This document shows positions 5,901 to 50,882 of a stretch of DNA of 64,000 nucleotides, piece after piece; position 1 is the stretch's first letter, and every line of letters begins with the position of its first letter. The notes under the pieces are model-generated. The model did no database searches and was not told the origin of the DNA. It worked only from the letters and a program-made list of their open reading frames with translations. The stretch lies in contig CACOMZ010000004.1 in the NCBI GenBank assembly GCA_902628525.1, positions 1-64,000 on the forward strand. The letters are read 5' to 3'. The DNA comes from an uncultured Pelagibacteraceae bacterium. Lineage in GTDB: Bacteria; Pseudomonadota; Alphaproteobacteria; Pelagibacterales; Pelagibacteraceae. A program made the translations under genes and the position numbers.

Positions 5901-6046
5901 GCCCCCTCTGTCTTGGTGCCTGAGAGATTTGCTCCGTCGGCGAGAATAATTCTCTTTCCAGAGTTAATATGTACGGTCCTTTTGCCTGAGAGTTTCCGGG
6001 GTGGTTGCTCCTTCGGCGCTACAGATGTAGTCTCTCCCGTAAGAGA
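5901..6046 (-). promoter_or_regulatory. Tandem glycine riboswitch (two aptamers) upstream of gcvT
   Basis: Minus strand reads GGGAGAGAC...GCGCCGAAGGAGCAA...AACTCTCAGGCAAAAGGACCG then a second GCCGACGGAGCAAATCTCTCAGGCACCAAGACAGAGG. Aptamer I P1 pairs 5972-5976/6037-6041; aptamer II P1 pairs 5906-5910/5959-5963. Confidence 0.96.
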
Positions 6047-6079
6047 ATTTATAACACATTTAAAATATTAATGTAAAAT

Positions 6080-31286: not shown

Positions 31287-31736
31287 TTATTTTAAAACAC
31301 TTTTTGCTGCAATCTTATTTCCGTCTAAGTCACGAACATATCCGTAATAATTTCCGTCTTTTCTTATACCTGGCGCCCCCTCATCAGTTGCTCCTTTCGA
31401 AATTGCAATCTCATAAAATTTTTCTACTGCTTCTTTTGACTCTGCTAACAATGTTATTTGTGATCCATTACCCATAGTTGCTGGTTTACCATTTACTGGG
31501 TTGGTTATATAAAATATTACTTTTTCTGGATCGCTTAAATGAGCATAACCAATATATTTTTCTGTAGTTAGTATTTTTTTTAACTTTAAAGGTTCAAATG
31601 CAGCATCATATAGCTCGCTTGATTTTTTATAATCATTAGAACCAACCATTACAAAATCTAAAATACTCATAATTAAATTAAAATTTATATAACTTAATAA
31701 CCAACTTAAACTACTAGTGGTTGAAGTTATCCACAA
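31287..31736 (-). CDS. VOC family (glyoxalase-like) protein
   Basis: ILDFVMVGSNDYKKSSELYDAAFEPL; YYGYVRDLDGNKIAA. True start is probably an internal Met (MSILDFVMVG). Confidence 0.8.
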   Translation of the reverse strand: MWITSTTSSLSWLLSYINFNLIMSILDFVMVGSNDYKKSSELYDAAFEPLKLKKILTTEKYIGYAHLSDPEKVIFYITNPVNGKPATMGNGSQITLLAESKEAVEKFYEIAISKGATDEGAPGIRKDGNYYGYVRDLDGNKIAAKSVLK

Positions 31737-31842
31737 GCATACAAAATATAGTTTCGATGTTCACGTTTTGATTCACTTTTGATTCAGTTACAGACTCAAA
31801 ATACAACCTCTTGAGTGTATTCAATAAATAGGCTATAAATTA

Positions 31843-41743: not shown

Positions 41744-42760
41744 TTAGAATTCTAAGATTTTTTTAGATCCATCACTGTATGTAAATTCTACTTGTTTTTT
41801 TGAAATACTTTTTATTGATGTAAATCCATCATATTCAGCAATGAATTCATTTAATTTCTTTCTACCTTTTTTGCTCATTTTTTTTCCTGGAGCATTCACA
41901 CCAACATCAATAATTAATTCTGCTCCATTTAAAAATGCTTTTACCCAAGCTTTGACTGGAGCACCACAAGTCATAGCTTCAGTTAACCATATAGGTTTAT
42001 TGACATCTGCACTTTTTAATAAGGCTGCAAATTCATCTACCCAAAGCTCTCTATCACACTGTCCATCTGGACCACTTATATGGTGGATATTTGCGATATC
42101 AAAATGATCTTTGATTTTTGGCAAAGCAGATTTCCAAAATTTTTTGCTTTCTGGAAACATTCCTGCAGCACCTGCCATTACAATCACTGCATCTGGCTGC
42201 TTTTCCTTAATTACCTTAGAAGAAAAATTAAATATTTCTACAAAGTCTTCCTCACTTCCTTTAAAGAACATTTTAAATTCTGGTTCGTTCATAATATCCC
42301 AATATATAATTGGTTTAGTTAAACCAGGCATATCATTTGCACCATCTCCATCATAACGATCAACTAATTGTAAAAGAAAGTTTTTGTAGTCATCCATGGA
42401 GCAAGGTTTACTAAGATACTTTGTAAATTTTTTTCCAAAAGGACTTCTTGCTTTTTTTCTTTTACAAGATTTTTGCTCCCAATTAGCGTGAGGCCAGATA
42501 GTAGCTAAAATTGTTTGATTGTGTTCTTGAGCATAAACAACATATTTGTCTGCCTCTTCCCAAGTAAACGTTCCTTTTTCTTTTTCGATGTGGTTCCAAA
42601 TAAAAGGTCCTGGATGAGGTCTAACCCATTGACCATCTTTACCTCGCATTTTCTCATCACGCATTTCGGTTAACTCTCCAAATCTAGAGTTTGCAAATGA
42701 TGTATTTGAAATCAGGTTTAAAAAAACAAGTAATAAAATAAATCTAATATACATTTTCAT
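41744..42760 (-). CDS. Secreted clan GH-A-like (TIM-barrel) glycoside hydrolase
   Basis: Signal peptide; acid/base-like IIYWDIMNEPEF and nucleophile-like PIWLTEAMTCG; family not determinable by eye. Confidence 0.68.
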   Translation of the reverse strand: MKMYIRFILLLVFLNLISNTSFANSRFGELTEMRDEKMRGKDGQWVRPHPGPFIWNHIEKEKGTFTWEEADKYVVYAQEHNQTILATIWPHANWEQKSCKRKKARSPFGKKFTKYLSKPCSMDDYKNFLLQLVDRYDGDGANDMPGLTKPIIYWDIMNEPEFKMFFKGSEEDFVEIFNFSSKVIKEKQPDAVIVMAGAAGMFPESKKFWKSALPKIKDHFDIANIHHISGPDGQCDRELWVDEFAALLKSADVNKPIWLTEAMTCGAPVKAWVKAFLNGAELIIDVGVNAPGKKMSKKGRKKLNEFIAEYDGFTSIKSISKKQVEFTYSDGSKKILEF

Positions 42761-42762
42761 TA

Positions 42763-45228
42763 TTATTTAGGATCTGGACCTGGACCTGGATCACCTGGAG
42801 GAGGGGCACCTGGTTGACCTGGAGTACCTGGACCTGCTGGATCACCTGGAGCGCCTGGACCTCCCATTGCTCCTTCAACAGCTCCACCAATATCACCCAT
42901 GGCACCGCCCATGCCGCCCATGTCACCGCCCATCGGACCCATGTCTCCCATTGGACCGCCTTCAGGACCGCCCATCGGACCCATGTCTCCCATTGGACCC
43001 ATATCTCCTGGACCAGCTGGACCTCCAGCCATTGCACCTGCCATAGCTCCACCCATTGTTCCAGTCATTCCATCTTGCATAGCGCCTCCCATGGCTTTAC
43101 CCATTTCGCCTTCGCCCATGCCTTCCATTCCCATTGCTGCTCCCATTGCATGAGAACCCATAGCTGAGGCTGCTGCTCCTTGAGCAGCCATAGCTGATCC
43201 CATTGCGGCACCTGCTAATCCTCCTGCTCCTTCAGCTGCCATTGCAGCACCTGCTACGTTTCCAATTGCTGCTCCTGGGTCAACTCCTGTTCCCATTGCA
43301 GCAGAGACTTGTCCTAAATTCATTCCACCTTTCATGCCACCTTCTAATCCTTCAGGTGTTCCACCCATAATGTCTCCTAATTTTGCACCTTCAGGACTTC
43401 CCGCTAAGCCCATGCTTGCTGCCATTTCTGGATTCATTTGTGAGTCTAAATTCATTTCTCCCATTCCAACCATTCCACCACTCATCGCTGCTAGACCCAT
43501 ATCGCCACCTTCCATACCCATGGCTCCACTTAATCCTTTCATTCCTTCAGCTCCCATTGCAGCCATCGTTCCTTGATTGACTAATCCAACTTCCATCATA
43601 TCTCCCATTTGACCAGCTGATAAATTTCCAGACTTAGCCATTTCCGCAACACCTTTAATTGCTTTACTACCTAACCCAGCAACGTTAGTTGACATAATTG
43701 TTGATACATCCATACCTGCAATTCCAGCTGCACCCATACTTGCTACCATTCCAGGAGTTAAACCTGTTTGCATTGCCATATCAGCCATTCCTAATTTGTC
43801 CATTTCTCCAACTTCCATTCCTGTCATGTTTGCCATTGCCTCACCCATGTCAGCTTTAGACATATTTTCCATAACTCCACCCATCATTGTACCTGCTGGA
43901 TTATTTGGATCTAATGCTAAACCCATACCTACAGCAGTCATTCCTTCAGGTGGTGCCATTGCACCAGGTAATCCACCGGCTAAAGATGGTTTTGCCATTA
44001 CCATTGCACCCATCATCATTCCAGATTCACTTATATTTTCTGGCATTTCTAAAGCTTCAGGTGCAGTCATATTATTTGCAAAAGAGTCCTTCATCTCCAT
44101 ACCTTTTTGAATAGCGTTCTGTTCTTTTGGTGCTTTACCAGATATGGCTTGACTTATCATTCCAACTGTTCCTGACATTGCAGAAGTTATTCCAACATCT
44201 GGATTAGCAAATGCTGTTTGCAATGTTTGAGCCATTTGATCCATTCCCATCTCTTGCATTGCTTTTCCAATTTCTTGCATTCCCTCTATACCACCCATGC
44301 CTTCTGCCATTTCAGTCATGCCTTCCATCCCGATACTTGTCTCCATACTTTTCATCATTTCTTCGCCCATACCTTTTGCACTCATCGTGGCTACTATTGC
44401 ACCAGTCATTGATTGACCCATTTGGCCCATCGTGTCAGGATTAGCTGCTAAGGTTTCTAGTGCAGCAGTTGCGGCTCCAACTGGTAATGCGTTTAATGCT
44501 CCTGCCATCATTGCTGGATTCATTCCCATTTCGGCAACATTCATTGAAGCAAAATCTCCTGGGTTAAAATTCGCCATATCAAAATTAGCTGAACCAGTTA
44601 TAGCTTCCATATCGACTAAACCTGATTTTGATAACCCTTCCATGGCAGCACCCATCCCAATACCTTGAGCATCTAGAGATCCCATCATTCCTTTTGCATC
44701 AAATCCAGCAGCACCTAGAGCGTTCATCTGCCCTGCCATTTTTTGTAAAGAGACAACTTTTCCAGCACCCATTTGGCCAGCAATACTTGACAAAGCCGCC
44801 ATTTCTTCTGGAGAAAAATCATTTGCAAAATCTATTCCTGTCATGTCTAAAGCTGTTGGGTCTGGAATGGCACCTAGAGCCATATCAGTAACGCCTTCAA
44901 CTAGAGACATTGCCTGAACTGCAGAGGTAATATCTCCTTTTTCTAAACTTTTTGTAGCAAATTCCATTGCGCTCTCTGCTTGAGCTATAGATACATCTAA
45001 AGCTTTTCCTATATCACTTTTTGCTTGGCCTAAAGCTTCTGTTGCACCTGAAATATTTTCAGCAACCTTACTTGCATCTGCTGCTAATTGATCTGCTGCA
45101 GCTTGAGCTGAATTTCCTGCTGCTTCTGAAATTCCTGACATAGCAGCTATATCATTTGCCTTAACAGAAAAGTTTAGGAATAAAAAAAATAATAAAAAAA
45201 TTTTAATTACAATTCTCAAAATTATCAA
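42763..45228 (-). CDS. Secreted Met/Gly/Ala-rich protein with collagen-like C-terminus, unknown function
   Basis: Hydrophobic N-terminus MIILRIVIKIFLLFFLFLNFSVKA; about 115 Met by hand count in 821 aa; C-term GPAGPGDMGPMGDMGPMGGPEGGPMGDMGPMGG..GPGAPGDPAGPGTPGQPGAPPPGDPGPGPDPK; TTG start overlapping the upstream TGA. Confidence 0.85.
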   Translation of the reverse strand: MIILRIVIKIFLLFFLFLNFSVKANDIAAMSGISEAAGNSAQAAADQLAADASKVAENISGATEALGQAKSDIGKALDVSIAQAESAMEFATKSLEKGDITSAVQAMSLVEGVTDMALGAIPDPTALDMTGIDFANDFSPEEMAALSSIAGQMGAGKVVSLQKMAGQMNALGAAGFDAKGMMGSLDAQGIGMGAAMEGLSKSGLVDMEAITGSANFDMANFNPGDFASMNVAEMGMNPAMMAGALNALPVGAATAALETLAANPDTMGQMGQSMTGAIVATMSAKGMGEEMMKSMETSIGMEGMTEMAEGMGGIEGMQEIGKAMQEMGMDQMAQTLQTAFANPDVGITSAMSGTVGMISQAISGKAPKEQNAIQKGMEMKDSFANNMTAPEALEMPENISESGMMMGAMVMAKPSLAGGLPGAMAPPEGMTAVGMGLALDPNNPAGTMMGGVMENMSKADMGEAMANMTGMEVGEMDKLGMADMAMQTGLTPGMVASMGAAGIAGMDVSTIMSTNVAGLGSKAIKGVAEMAKSGNLSAGQMGDMMEVGLVNQGTMAAMGAEGMKGLSGAMGMEGGDMGLAAMSGGMVGMGEMNLDSQMNPEMAASMGLAGSPEGAKLGDIMGGTPEGLEGGMKGGMNLGQVSAAMGTGVDPGAAIGNVAGAAMAAEGAGGLAGAAMGSAMAAQGAAASAMGSHAMGAAMGMEGMGEGEMGKAMGGAMQDGMTGTMGGAMAGAMAGGPAGPGDMGPMGDMGPMGGPEGGPMGDMGPMGGDMGGMGGAMGDIGGAVEGAMGGPGAPGDPAGPGTPGQPGAPPPGDPGPGPDPK
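42925..42999 (-). repeat. Two perfect 33-bp direct repeats, 42-bp period, in the collagen-like coding region
   Basis: accgcccatcggacccatgtctcccattggacc at 42925-42957 and 42967-42999. Confidence 0.95.
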
Positions 45229-45887
45229 TTACCCTCCTCAATTTTCTCTTGTGCTTTTATAGTAGCAGCTCTTTGTGCATTTACTTTTGCAGTTGCAATT
45301 TGTTTTTTTAAATTTGCTAAAACTGCTGCGCGCTCTGCTATTTCAGGTGTTAATTTTTTTGCCTTCTTTTTCTTTTTCTTTTTATTTTTTTTATGGGCAG
45401 CATAAAGCATTTTACCTGTTGCCCAGAATTTTAGAACTGCCTCTGATGATTTAGCTTTTGGTGAGATGTTTAAGCTCATTCTCATGGCCTCTCTTCCTTT
45501 TTTAATACCTTCTAATGTTTCAACACTTGCGTTTTTGTCATTAAGCATCTCATTAAATAAAGCTTCAAAATAAGCCATGTCTCTGATCATGTGATGTTGA
45601 TATTTATTTAACTCACCTTTTCCTTTAACAAATCTTTGATAAACTTTTCTTCCAGCTTCACCTTGCTTTTGTTTACTTTTAATTAAGCTTTCATGAAACA
45701 TTCCCTCAGGGTAATCAATTTCTTCATATATAAATGCTTCTGGTCTTTCGCTTATTGGCCAGTCTTTTAGCTTCTCGTACTTTTTACAATAAGTACAATC
45801 TTTCTCTTTTTCTTTTTTTGCAGCTTCTAAATTTTGATTTGTAAAAAATATTATTATGAAAATAATAAATAAATTAAATATATTTAT
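45225..45887 (-). CDS. Secreted Lys-rich protein with N-terminal CxxC, unknown function; probable non-canonical start
   Basis: Track ORF 45225..45701 extends in frame upstream to INIFNLFIIFIIIFFTNQNLEAAKKEKEKDCTYCKKYEKLKDWPISERPEAFIYEEIDYPEG-MFHES..; no ATG/GTG/TTG/CTG in the extension. Confidence 0.6.
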   Translation of the reverse strand: MNIFNLFIIFIIIFFTNQNLEAAKKEKEKDCTYCKKYEKLKDWPISERPEAFIYEEIDYPEGMFHESLIKSKQKQGEAGRKVYQRFVKGKGELNKYQHHMIRDMAYFEALFNEMLNDKNASVETLEGIKKGREAMRMSLNISPKAKSSEAVLKFWATGKMLYAAHKKNKKKKKKKAKKLTPEIAERAAVLANLKKQIATAKVNAQRAATIKAQEKIEEGN

Positions 45888-46083
45888 GGCAGATTTACTG
45901 CCAAACTCGCCTGGCTAAACCTTTCATACTTAGACTCTATTCTTATATTAAAAGTAAAAAAAGAAATCTTTTTTAGGTCAATATTAGCTTTTTAAATTTT
46001 TATTCAATTAAAACGAGTATTTAAATATTTATTTTTTTTATGCAAATTAATCTAAATAATTTAAAAATCCTAAGAACCAGAAT

Positions 46084-47238
46084 TTATGTTTTAAATAATT
46101 TATCAGATAAATTTTGTAGTTTTTCTCCCCAAAAAACTTCTTTTTGAATTCTTTTAAAATCAATATCAAATACTGTTGCCATTGCAGATGCATAAATTGA
46201 TCTTGCATCGATCGTTGAATTTAAATCTCTTCCTTCAAATAATTCTTTTTTTTTCAAACCTGGCCAATCAGTATATATGTCTGATTTTTTTATTAAACCG
46301 CCACTCATAAGAACTGCTGTTCCATAACCATGCTCAGTACCATTGCTACTATTCTGTTTAATTGTTCTTCCAAATTCTGTTAGTGTTAGCACAAGAGTAT
46401 TTTCAAACTCGTTTCCCATCGAAGCTTCAAGTCCTTTTAAAATTCTATCGTATTCTTTTAAACAATCTGCATGAGCCCCATCTGTTGCACCTTGGGCAGC
46501 ATGAGTGTCAAAACCACCCACCTCAAAAACTGCTACTCTAGGTCCGTCAATTTTTGCTAATTGTTTGCCTGCTTTAAGAGATAATGCTGAATTTTCTGTA
46601 TAGCCATAACCTCCATCTTTCCTGCTTCTAATTACTTTAAGTGTTTCACTTAAATGTGTTTCTGAATGACTATCAAATTCATTATTTATTAACTCTAAAA
46701 TATCTTTCGCAGGCATTGCTTTTCCAACAGGGAAATAATTATCATTCATTGGAACCCCTCTAATTAATAATGGCATTGGCAATGATAAAGCTAAGCCATT
46801 GCCAGTTAACCCTGCTAACTTCATTCCCCTTCCTAGCCATCCTGTTTTAATTGAATATGGAATTTTTCCTCCAGACTGCATTAAATTTTGTCCATCAAAA
46901 TGAGAACGTCCTGTATATGGAATACTGGTTGCATGAACTGCAGATGCTAAATTTTTATCCCATAAAATTTTAAAAGTTTGTAAAGCAGGATGAAGGTCGA
47001 AATCTGAGGTTAAAGAGAATGTTTTATCAAGATTAATTTTACTTCTAAGTTTTTCAAATTTTTTATCACCCTTTACTGGGATTGCGCATAGTCCATCCAT
47101 TCCTCCCTCAAGCATTATAATTACCAGATTTTTTTTTGGACCAGTACTTGCAAAAGAAGGTAATCCAAAACCTGCAAAATATAATGAAGTCACGGCTGTT
47201 GTTTTAAGAAAATCTCTTCTGTTAATTTCTAATTTCAT
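46084..47238 (-). CDS. DUF1501 protein (alkaline phosphatase/sulfatase-like superfamily) with Tat signal
   Basis: Twin-arginine start MKLEINRRDFLKTTAVTSLYF; NLVIIMLEGGMDGL; VAVFEVGGFDTHAAQ; LVLTLTEFGRTIKQNSSNGTEHGYG. Confidence 0.9.
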   Translation of the reverse strand: MKLEINRRDFLKTTAVTSLYFAGFGLPSFASTGPKKNLVIIMLEGGMDGLCAIPVKGDKKFEKLRSKINLDKTFSLTSDFDLHPALQTFKILWDKNLASAVHATSIPYTGRSHFDGQNLMQSGGKIPYSIKTGWLGRGMKLAGLTGNGLALSLPMPLLIRGVPMNDNYFPVGKAMPAKDILELINNEFDSHSETHLSETLKVIRSRKDGGYGYTENSALSLKAGKQLAKIDGPRVAVFEVGGFDTHAAQGATDGAHADCLKEYDRILKGLEASMGNEFENTLVLTLTEFGRTIKQNSSNGTEHGYGTAVLMSGGLIKKSDIYTDWPGLKKKELFEGRDLNSTIDARSIYASAMATVFDIDFKRIQKEVFWGEKLQNLSDKLFKT

Positions 47239-48668
47239 GCTTTTAAAAAATCTGGATGATTAAACAACAAAACTTGTTTGTCGCTAAGGTTATTTTTTTT
47301 ATTTAGGTAAGACATAATTTTTTTTGGATTATCAAAGTTTTTTTCTACAATCTTATAAAAGAATTCATTATTATTATTTTTAGGCTTATTAAAAAGATAA
47401 CTTTCTTTTGCATAAACTAACCGTCTTATTAAAAGTTCTGGTGACAACCAATCATTTGAAATGTCTGACCAACCATTTGGTTGCTTTGCTTTATATGGAT
47501 GATGTCCAATTCTTTTTAGTAAACGCTCAGGATATCTTTGACCTCTAGTTGGCTTGTTTCCTAATTCATATAAATCCATCAAAGTAGAACTTGGAGGCCA
47601 TTGTAAATCTGAAATTTTAGCAACTTGGATAAACCAATTTTCTGGGTTTTGAAATTTTTTATATTTATCATTATATTCAAAAGCAACTTTTATAGCGGCT
47701 TTGTGGATCTCAGTTAAATGACCGTCAGATTTTTTAAAAGCATCGATAATTGGTTTTTTCATCTCTTTTGTTGGTTCGTCTGTAATTAAATACCTACATA
47801 ATCTTTCAGCAACAAAATCCCTGCAATTTGGATGATTAACAAGATCTTTGATTACGGCTGATAATGCCTTTTTTCCTCTTTTGTATTCTTTTCCTAAAAC
47901 TTTTTTCTTACCAGGCTGATGATATTCTGAATTAAACCAAATATCTCCTGTCTCTAAATGTTTTTTACTCCATCGTCTTTGCCAACCAGTCATTATATAT
48001 GCTAATTGAATTATATCTTCTTGAGTGTATCCGGCTTCAGGAGACACTGTATGAAGCTCTAAAAGTTCTCTAGCATGATTTTCATTAATTGTTGCAGGTT
48101 CTTTTTTTTTCCTTCTCCAATCTTTAAAAGCTGTAGCACTTTTGGGGCCGGCACTTTCACTGTTATCTAAATGATGTATCATTGCCCAAGAAGTCGTAAC
48201 GTCATAAACCATTTTTTCAAAAGTTTGATTTAAATTTGGTCTAATTATTTCTCTTTGATAAGGGCCTGTTGAATATTGGGGCAGAAAATCTTTATCACTT
48301 ATAGTAAAAAAATTTCCCCAAAACATCCATAACTTTGTCAAAACTGGGCTTTGACTATTGATTGCCTCATTATGTCTAACAGTTATCTCTAAGGACTCCC
48401 AAAATTTTTGACCAGTTTTATGCCTAAGAAGGTCTCGGTGTGTTTTATAAAGAATTTTACTATCTTTATACTTTTTTCTTAAAACTTTTCTATCAGTGTA
48501 AACCCATTCTCTATACAGGAGCCTTAACTCTTTTTCAGAATTTAATCTACCTTTCCAAGATAATTTTGGTACATTGTTTAGCTGATTAAGGGCCCAATTT
48601 AACGGGTCTGATGGTACCTCCTCATTAGGACCAATTCCAAAAGCAACTTTTCTGAAAAAACTTTTCAT
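47235..48668 (-). CDS. DUF1800 family protein
   Basis: ENHARELLELHTVSPEAGYTQEDIIQLAYIMTGW; HHPYKAKQPNGWSDISNDWLSPELLIRRL; ATG overlaps with the DUF1501 gene. Confidence 0.9.
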   Translation of the reverse strand: MKSFFRKVAFGIGPNEEVPSDPLNWALNQLNNVPKLSWKGRLNSEKELRLLYREWVYTDRKVLRKKYKDSKILYKTHRDLLRHKTGQKFWESLEITVRHNEAINSQSPVLTKLWMFWGNFFTISDKDFLPQYSTGPYQREIIRPNLNQTFEKMVYDVTTSWAMIHHLDNSESAGPKSATAFKDWRRKKKEPATINENHARELLELHTVSPEAGYTQEDIIQLAYIMTGWQRRWSKKHLETGDIWFNSEYHQPGKKKVLGKEYKRGKKALSAVIKDLVNHPNCRDFVAERLCRYLITDEPTKEMKKPIIDAFKKSDGHLTEIHKAAIKVAFEYNDKYKKFQNPENWFIQVAKISDLQWPPSSTLMDLYELGNKPTRGQRYPERLLKRIGHHPYKAKQPNGWSDISNDWLSPELLIRRLVYAKESYLFNKPKNNNNEFFYKIVEKNFDNPKKIMSYLNKKNNLSDKQVLLFNHPDFLKA

Positions 48669-48686: not shown

Positions 48687-49559
48687 TCACTTTATATTTT
48701 CGATATCATGTATATTTGATAAAGAATTATTAAATTCCTCATAATTTTCTCTCAACGCTAGGCTTGAAATTGAATAAATCATTATCAATAATAAAATTAA
48801 AGGTACCATGGTTATAATCGATGCATTACTTTTAATTAATAAAATATAAAAAATTATAAAAAGAGCTGAACGAATTAAAACAGTTTTTCTAAAAACACTT
48901 ATAATTGAAAGTGAATGTTTTAATAAATTAAAAAAACTCATCTTTGATGGTCCAAAATATCTTTTTGCTCTAATAGATGGCATTGAAATTAAATCTTTTT
49001 CAATTTTTTTTAATGAGCCAGAAAAACTATTCCATGTTGCTTTTTCCTCTAGCATTTTTTTTACTGTTGATTTTGAAAGACAAGTAAAATTTCCAAATTT
49101 GATTGATTTGCCAGTAAAAGCTAAAGTCAAAAACTTATGGAATTGATAACATATTTTAAAAAATACACTTTCTGATCTTTTAACTCTTTCACCAACAATT
49201 GATTTATCTCCTGATTCTCTTGATATTTTTATAAAATCTTTTATTTCTTGAGGTCTATCTTCTCCATCTCCATCCATTGGAATCACATAATCGAAATCTT
49301 TTTTTTCATAAATATATTTTAGCCCCGATGCAATGCACCTAGTATGCCCTCTATTTTGTTTCATGTTTATTAGCTGAATAGATTTGATATTTTCGACATT
49401 TGGGTAATTATCAACAATCTGTTCTGACGAAGCATCATTAATAATAACAAGAGATATTTCTGAGTCTAAGTCTTTTACTTCACTATTTATATGATCAATT
49501 AATAATTTTAACGATTTTCTGTCATTATAAATTGGAATTAAAATTATATATTTCATCAA
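48687..49559 (-). CDS. GT2 family glycosyltransferase (DPM1/polyprenyl-phosphate type)
   Basis: YIILIPIYNDRKSLKLLIDHI; FDYVIPMDGDGEDRP; C-terminal TM helices. Confidence 0.85.
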   Translation of the reverse strand: MMKYIILIPIYNDRKSLKLLIDHINSEVKDLDSEISLVIINDASSEQIVDNYPNVENIKSIQLINMKQNRGHTRCIASGLKYIYEKKDFDYVIPMDGDGEDRPQEIKDFIKISRESGDKSIVGERVKRSESVFFKICYQFHKFLTLAFTGKSIKFGNFTCLSKSTVKKMLEEKATWNSFSGSLKKIEKDLISMPSIRAKRYFGPSKMSFFNLLKHSLSIISVFRKTVLIRSALFIIFYILLIKSNASIITMVPLILLLIMIYSISSLALRENYEEFNNSLSNIHDIENIK

Positions 49560-50882
49560 CTACTTTGATCCTACACAAACATTATCGAGACACATATAAT
49601 ATTCCAATTCACCTAGTTTTTCTTTTTTAATATTTCCTTCCCAAACTGGTCTTGATTTTAAATGATATGATAAATTTCCTGCATTCCATTCATCCCCCAA
49701 AACTACATTTATTGGTGAGTTAAATTGCTGATCCCAGGCATATTGAGTTTTTATTGCAATCTCTTTACCTTGGTAATCAGTTCTTTTATCATCTTTGGAA
49801 ATTGAAACATAAGCATAAAGTGCAGGTGACAGAAAAAATAAAAAAATAAATCCAAACATAAAATGTTTTAATTTTTTAATATTAATTTGGGCTTGAAGCA
49901 AATAAACAAATAGTGTCCCTATAAATAAATAAAAAGGAGGCATCCACATTGTTCTTATTTTAGATCCAGTAAATAAAGATGTTAAAAAAATCAAAAAAAT
50001 TGGTAAAATATTAATCGCTAACAAAAAAAGACATTTTTTATCTTTAAGGTTTAAATTAAATTTAATTTTTTTTATTAATATCCATATTAAGATTAAAAAA
50101 GGAATTAATATTCCTATTTGTTTGAGTAAAAATGTTAAAGGAAACTTTATATGATGATGAAAGCTTGAAACTTCCATTCCAGTTCTTGTTAATCCATAAG
50201 TAATCGTTATAAAATCATTATTATTTAACCAAATTAAATGTGGAACTAGGACAACTAAAAAAATTTCTATAGCTAATAAATATTTAAAATCGAATTTTCT
50301 CTCTTTTTTTATGAAAATTAAAAAAATAAATAAAAAACTTATAGAAACTAACAAATATATAAATAAGTATTTTGATAAAAAACCAATTGCAGCAAAAAAT
50401 CCAACAAACAAACAATCTAAAAATTCAATTTCTTTTTTACTATAAATTTTCCAAGAATAATAAACTGTTAGTGACCAAAAAGGTAACTGGCAAATATTCA
50501 CGTTAAATTCTGGACTAGTAAAATTAAAAAAATAAATTGACTCAATAAGAAAAACTGAAATTAAACTTAATAAATTATTTTTTAGAATTTCTTTAGACAG
50601 TTTAAAAACATAATAAAAAGAAATAATTACAAAAATTTGACTTAGTAGATAAAACGCCCAATCCTGTGAACCAAAAATTTGAAAAAAAACTTCCGGAAAA
50701 AAAGCACTCATCGGTGGATGTTTATTAAAACCCCAATCTAAATTACTTCCCCAAGCTAAAGCTTCGATTACATCTAATGGCAAATTATGATTGGTAAGTG
50801 ATGGAATCAAAGTCCAAAAAATTAGATGTGTTGTAACAAAAATATAAAAAACATTATCTATATTTTTGTTATTAATGGTCAT
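49560..50882 (-). CDS. ArnT/PMT-like integral membrane glycosyltransferase
   Basis: Multi-TM; LPLDVIEALAWGSNLDWGFNKHPPMSAFFPEVFFQIFG; coupled to the GT2 gene. Confidence 0.83.
   Translation of the reverse strand: MTINNKNIDNVFYIFVTTHLIFWTLIPSLTNHNLPLDVIEALAWGSNLDWGFNKHPPMSAFFPEVFFQIFGSQDWAFYLLSQIFVIISFYYVFKLSKEILKNNLLSLISVFLIESIYFFNFTSPEFNVNICQLPFWSLTVYYSWKIYSKKEIEFLDCLFVGFFAAIGFLSKYLFIYLLVSISFLFIFLIFIKKERKFDFKYLLAIEIFLVVLVPHLIWLNNNDFITITYGLTRTGMEVSSFHHHIKFPLTFLLKQIGILIPFLILIWILIKKIKFNLNLKDKKCLFLLAINILPIFLIFLTSLFTGSKIRTMWMPPFYLFIGTLFVYLLQAQINIKKLKHFMFGFIFLFFLSPALYAYVSISKDDKRTDYQGKEIAIKTQYAWDQQFNSPINVVLGDEWNAGNLSYHLKSRPVWEGNIKKEKLGELEYYMCLDNVCVGSK

Follow-up and report, generated by a model that had tools for sequence, protein, structure and literature searches.

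The 64,000-nucleotide stretch of DNA analysed here (the window) carries two adjoining genes for secreted proteins which, judged by sequence comparison, make up a hitherto undescribed module of two genes that occurs in SAR11 alone. Gene 2 (42763..45228, -), recognised from its ORF, composition, orthologues and dN/dS, encodes an 821-aa secreted Met/Gly/Ala-rich protein. Gene 1 (45225..45914, -) encodes a small basic secreted partner and is open in the +1 frame, with no ATG, GTG or TTG before its signal peptide. We are highly confident of the anatomy of the module, namely a gene pair, natural fusions of its two members, a conserved head and a variable arm. A preliminary description of this DNA overlooked the partner gene and its unusual start as well as the conserved head domain of gene 2. 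What it had observed was partly confirmed and its interpretation is partly supported.

The gene pair and its relatives

Gene 2 is a real, conserved gene under strong purifying selection, since its dN/dS against six sister genomes is 0.07–0.11 and its reading frame, for which disruption in the sister genomes was looked for, is unbroken in all six. Its start codon in the ORF list of the window is TTG. Met accounts for 114 of the 821 residues (115 with the initiator, in line with the original hand count of about 115; 13.9%), Gly for 156 (19%) and Ala for 137 (17%), so that these three make up 50% of the protein. Cys, Trp and Tyr are missing over the whole length, there is one His, and the single Arg lies in the signal region; the earlier remark that none of Cys, Trp, Tyr and Arg occurs past that region therefore holds. 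The net charge is –60 for gene 2 and +19 for gene 1. The signal peptide (residues 1–24; 45157..45228, -), which overlaps the gene 1 stop (TTGA), was read by eye as Sec-like: a hydrophobic N-terminus is followed by KA/ND, and this pattern is conserved in the alignment. Searches of gene 2 against Pfam, NCBIfam and PDB sequences gave no family match, in keeping with the first impression that it belongs to no recognised family; the best PDB sequence match is a designed filament at a non-significant E of 0.06. Sliding profile-profile comparison of the alignment found no internal repeats above 60% probability in gene 2, and no anchor, barrel or known exporter domain was found in the module.

Gene 1, whose span including the zero-frame start is 45225-45927 (-), lies directly upstream of gene 2 with an overlap of 4 bases (TTGA, comprising the gene 1 stop and the gene 2 start). 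Its product is laid out as a CxYC motif followed by a conserved helical domain. The head domain of gene 2 (residues 38–201; 44626..45117, -) is common to secreted SAR11 proteins with unrelated C-termini; the window protein matches the head model at E 5e-64, its own sequence being part of that model. Weak matches to residues 50–191 lead to secreted proteins of 320–1650 aa, which have a gene 1 relative upstream wherever the flank is readable, except for L021, where the upstream ORF was set aside as unrelated. Searched for with profiles, gene 1 and the gene 2 head turn up at the same places, and the gene 1 homologue is either directly upstream of gene 2 or fused to it. Natural fusions, with both halves in one ORF, are L072 (916 aa) and L064, L066–L068 and L079 (591–717 aa).

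For residues 1–400 of the L072 fusion, an AlphaFold model (35 rows) reached a pLDDT of 87.7 and a pTM of 0.84. Its strand segments number just two, at 175–178 in the gene 1 half and at 308–311 in the head half, and in this prediction they can therefore pair only with each other. The gene 1 protein and the gene 2 head are thus predicted by the model to fold as one helical unit. No fold match of the module models was obtained at E<=0.001 in PDB or viral libraries; isolated weak matches of the helical domains in Pfam, PADLOC and PHROG contradicted one another, and we took them as coiled-coil noise.

More than 40 full-frame relatives of gene 2 occur in SAR11 genomes. A search of 397 genomes of the family yielded 13 relatives with 33–94% identity over most of the length, and the 44 gene 2 loci in named records are all from Pelagibacteraceae, mostly from single-cell genomes. 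Strong gene 1 matches are present in 32 of 397 genomes of the order, or about 8% of the SAR11 genomes sampled, while weak ones (E 1e-4 to 1e-3) were regarded as unrelated and left out. No module members were found in 237 other genomes of the class. Single-sequence queries of viral contigs and phage records returned no relatives either, and a phage origin was rejected on this ground. The module sits at different chromosomal sites in different genomes. In some single-cell or draft genomes gene 1 is broken or cut short mid-gene (L118:4239-5001, L131:4257-4953 and L038:9906-10490), which may reflect either decay or sequencing error.

A candidate frameshift at the start of gene 1

The start of gene 1 is a candidate programmed +1 frameshift, an assignment that we consider probable from the conserved arrangement of frames. 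No ATG, GTG or TTG stands in frame ahead of the signal peptide in the gene 1 copies of the window and its subclade. The zero-frame start (45895..45927, -) reads ATG AAA GGT TTA GCC AGG CGA GTT TGG CAG TAA (MKGLARRVWQ*) and contains the candidate shift site TTA GCC AGG (45910..45918, -). This site is invariant in 18 of 18 distinct sequences, a set that was itself selected by the motif TTA GCC AGG and comprises the window together with L080-L082, L084-L087, L090-L094, L096, L097, L099, L108 and L131. All 18 have an upstream ATG in another frame, then the motif, and then gene 1 in the +1 frame as the main ORF, which has no start of its own. The distance from ATG to TTA is 9, 12 or 21 nt, a multiple of three every time, and a stop closes the zero frame 6–13 codons in, at a position that varies between sequences and in four cases directly follows AGG.

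In an unselected list all start-less gene 1 copies (excluding contig-end cuts and mid-gene breaks) have the motif, and copies without it start with an ordinary ATG. A pattern search of 201 genomes of the genus returned six copies of the motif, each of them at a gene 1 start. GCC and AGG are both rare in this genome (3.7 and 3.2 per 1000 codons, respectively), and an invariant shift sequence with a rare A-site codon was found in the motif-selected set as well as in the unselected list. In the gene 1 tree the motif-bearing sequences form one weakly supported clade (88/71), and so appear to have one origin, with the motif kept despite much flanking change.

A non-canonical start of gene 1 was considered and rejected. 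Most copies have no ATG, GTG or TTG before the signal, and in L028/L080 even the ATT lies inside the hydrophobic core; on these grounds a frameshift fits better. It should be noted that tRNA-Arg(CCU) was not among the tRNAs found in G218, for which the tRNA list is incomplete, and that Rfam gave no element at the gene 1 start. The window and several relatives have a short inverted repeat, TGGCAG-TAAAT-CTGCCA, just past the candidate shift site (~45885-45905, -). One member (L081/L103) shows a matched change on both sides of the repeat (GGTAG/CTACC), and it is absent from other members.

Programmed +1 frameshift sites are known from yeast Ty3 (GCG-AGU-U) and Ty1 (CUU-AGG-C) and from bacterial prfB. 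Like these, gene 1 has a zero-frame start, a short zero-frame ORF and a long +1-frame ORF, and in its putative site likewise an AG-N codon comes after an invariant Ala codon (GCC-AGG-C/U). Unlike Ty1 and Ty3 it is bacterial, and unlike prfB it is another gene, with the candidate shift only a few codons past the start. If real, the gene 1 frameshift would be a rare bacterial case, the shift sequence of which invites comparison with Ty3 and Ty1.

Arm, tail and the place of methionine

Beyond the head, gene 2 consists of a Met/Gly/Ala-rich arm (residues 202–740; 43009..44625, -) and a Gly/Pro/Met-rich tail (residues 741–821; 42766..43008, -) with interrupted Gly-X-Y. The full-length AlphaFold model is poor (pLDDT 46.7, pTM 0.43), and for this reason we claim for the fold of the arm nothing further than short helices, predicted at low confidence. 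Long amphipathic helices were rejected, as the signal at period 3.6 is weak (z 2.1) and the strongest one is at 4.5. The tail is fast evolving, with a dN/dS of 0.30 over the last 80 residues versus 0.03–0.09 for the rest of gene 2; within the Met-rich clade the value for the arm is 0.04–0.09. Between paralogues the arms are unrelated and include tandem repeats (L071, L073), long coiled coils with Cys pairs (L037, L039, L043), short tails (L042, L075) and the Met-rich arm. The arm of L071 (L071:5852-7696) is made of ~10 tandem copies of a ~36-aa unit (TGTWKDELSP...GFSDAEIRD), and this unit matches the Pfam Decapeptide repeat PF25296 among many spurious models.

Four distinct Met-poor orthologues of the window protein (L036, L070, L076, L128), with 3% Met and 7–8% Gly, retain the same architecture as the Met-rich gene 2. 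When the 103 Met columns are followed in three Met-poor orthologues, the 283 filled cells contain Leu 80, Ile 73, Met 46 and Val 36 times, so that one of these four residues is present in 235 of them (83%). Since the Met columns are occupied in this way, Met in the arm appears to be mainly a structural hydrophobic residue that fills packing positions. Among Met-rich members, on the other hand, 113 Met-majority columns hold 1655 Met cells versus ~100 with Ile, Leu or Val. The MxxM and MGxM spacings, first described as frequent, were overstated: compared with shuffles there is only a mild excess of Met-Met pairs at spacing 3 (22 pairs, z=1.8) and at spacing 4 (26 pairs, z=2.8), and a deficit at spacings 1 and 2.

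The side chains of gene 2 contain 0.11 N and 2.05 C per residue, the lowest values of the 25 window proteins measured, compared with 0.18–0.21 N and ~2.5 C in the Met-poor orthologues, and sulfur is raised by the exchange. In the gene 1 tree the Met-rich and Met-poor orthologues fall in one well-supported clade with an unresolved root. Because all outgroups of this clade are Met-poor, the tree suggests that Met-richness is the derived state. Orthologues that share one architecture but have 3% or 14% Met amount to a natural experiment on the usefulness of methionine.

Possible functions and genomic neighbourhood

Our best guess for the function of the module is a secreted scaffold or spacer with a flexible arm, a tentative reading that we put just short of an even chance. 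Genes 1 and 2 would form a SAR11-specific two-protein secreted module, both proteins of which are presumably exported via Sec to the periplasm or the cell surface. The gene 1 protein and the gene 2 head would pack together, and the head would hold the long arm. In the window's clade the arm would consist of ~540 residues of short Met/Gly/Ala helices and end in a flexible Gly/Pro tail, with Met replacing the Leu, Ile and Val of relatives as a flexible hydrophobic packing residue. Met, Gly and Ala together would give a long acidic arm that is very cheap in N and C, at a cost paid in reduced sulfur. Such an arm could be a matrix scaffold or a spacer, probably one that in this clade operates together with the adjacent glycan enzymes. 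The adjacency of the pair, the fusions, the confident fusion model and the constancy of the head over unrelated arm types support a scaffold, as do the residue exchange at the Met columns, the low side-chain N and C, the net charges of the two proteins and the strong purifying selection. The absence of glycan genes beside the pair in other clades speaks against it, as do the poor full-length model of gene 2 and the failure to find an anchor, barrel or exporter domain; the cost argument leaves the existence of Met-poor orthologues unexplained. The fuller proposal is a SAR11 secreted complex in which gene 1 is made via a +1 frameshift (TTA-GCC-AGG) and gene 2 has exchanged almost every aliphatic packing residue for Met, giving an N- and C-cheap and possibly redox-tunable arm. 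We regard it as possible but, taken as a whole, doubtful. If true, it would bring to light a new +1 frameshift gene in bacteria besides prfB and a novel means of building a long secreted scaffold under nutrient limitation. Some SAR11 keep a strongly conserved secreted protein with 114 Met despite their dependence on outside reduced sulfur.

Other explanations take methionine itself as the purpose of the arm. Bacterial Met-rich copper proteins (the CueO insert, PcoE/SilE, CopA motifs) either combine Met with His or belong to cupredoxin or small periplasmic folds and are encoded next to copper genes. Gene 2 resembles them in being secreted and Met-rich, and its 114 Met and the mild excess of spacings 3 and 4 could suit the putative Cu(I)/Ag(I)-binding protein of the preliminary description. 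However, it has neither the Met/His mix nor such a fold, the mildly enriched spacings suit helices equally well, and its Met positions exchange with Leu, Ile and Val, as copper ligands should not. With one His, no Cys, no copper-family domain and no copper gene nearby (the neighbours are glycan, TRAP/ABC and housekeeping genes), copper binding is very improbable. In a redox-responsive protein the arm would change between a packed or condensed form and a soluble one as its Met is oxidised to sulfoxide, or it would take up oxidants sacrificially in the periplasm or outside the cell. This reading fits the Met-majority columns, as they stay Met beyond the needs of simple hydrophobicity. There is also a precedent, since the Met-rich low-complexity domain of yeast Pbp1 reportedly senses redox state. 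Gene 2 shares with Pbp1/ataxin-2 a long Met-rich low-complexity stretch in which Met may act as a flexible, oxidisable hydrophobic residue, but Pbp1 is a cytosolic eukaryotic condensate protein without homology to gene 2, which is secreted and has a conserved head and a partner. The one test made of the earlier idea of an oxidant sink gave it no support: the periplasmic Met-sulfoxide reductase MsrP does not track gene 2, as 3 of the 8 carrier genomes lack it and 6 of the 7 non-carriers have it. No redox gene adjoins the pair and orthologues with 3% Met exist, so a redox role seems unlikely to us. MsrP, found in most SAR11 genomes tested, is missing in the second Met-rich subclade (G242, G152, G392). 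A secreted or periplasmic store of nutrients that SAR11 lacks, namely reduced sulfur in the form of Met together with Gly and Ala, would agree with the half of gene 2 made of these residues. SAR11 has no assimilatory sulfate reduction (PMC5069961), and pyruvate, glycine and methionine are added to its culture media (PMC6775983). We see in this a curious coincidence, as a store would need no position-by-position conservation, the same architecture is kept in Met-poor orthologues, and the partner protein and glycan genes are left unexplained; a reserve is quite improbable.

The remaining alternatives concern the variable C-terminal part. An adhesin, decoy or secreted antagonist with a constant head and a hypervariable arm, used for phage or grazer evasion, for target binding or as a toxin-like two-component system, would account for the wholesale replacement of arms between paralogues, for the patchy presence of the module and for its different chromosomal sites. 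At the same time the arm is strongly conserved rather than diversifying within the Met-rich clade, and PADLOC, PHROG and fold searches gave no match above chance level. The module shares with polymorphic toxins a constant N-terminal and a variable C-terminal part, but no small variable toxin domain or variable downstream immunity gene was found: the genes downstream are GH10-like or unrelated and are not paired to arm type, and the partner is conserved and upstream. We give this explanation a low, though not negligible, probability. A collagen-like fibre built by a Gly-X-Y tail, as in Scl and BclA (PF01391), is hardly credible. The Pro/Gly-rich C-terminus, with some Gly-X-Y, is there as first described, and runs in relatives reach 6–29 triplets (29 in L035). 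The longest unbroken run in the window protein, however, has 6 triplets and lies outside the tail, Met-poor orthologues have 3–4, the length and register of the tail are not conserved, and Pfam including the collagen model PF01391 gave no match to E 0.1 for the window protein, L028, L033 and L035. What stands of the 'collagen-like' tail is thus a Gly/Pro-rich segment with short, interrupted triplets.

The scaffold reading, already proposed in the preliminary description as a fibrous surface scaffold for co-encoded glycan machinery, remains the best guess, with its link to glycan genes only partial. A secreted GH10-like glycoside hydrolase (41744..42760, -) lies 2 nt downstream of gene 2 and is a conserved neighbour in part of the clade. 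DUF1501 and DUF1800 genes (46084..48668, -) lie upstream and are neighbours only in the window's subclade, where a glycosyltransferase family 2 gene and a PMT_2 (PF13231) membrane protein (48687..50882, -) are conserved neighbours as well. Across relatives, the GH10-like gene is directly downstream of gene 2 in two subclades, the window's and a second one, and not in others; it is mainly in the window's subclade that the pair has DUF1800, DUF1501, glycosyltransferase 2, PMT_2, sulfatase and polysaccharide lyases as neighbours; and other relatives carry the gene pair with neither the GH10-like gene nor the DUF1800/DUF1501/glycosyltransferase block. The constant unit is the gene pair, not the glycan block. 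Downstream of gene 2 the window also has a run of secreted polysaccharide-lyase-like genes (PF14099, PF05426; 33771..41567, -), which is unexpected for SAR11. Known RNA elements in the window are the SAR11_0636 sRNA and a glycine riboswitch, at 31719-31808 and 5964-6049.
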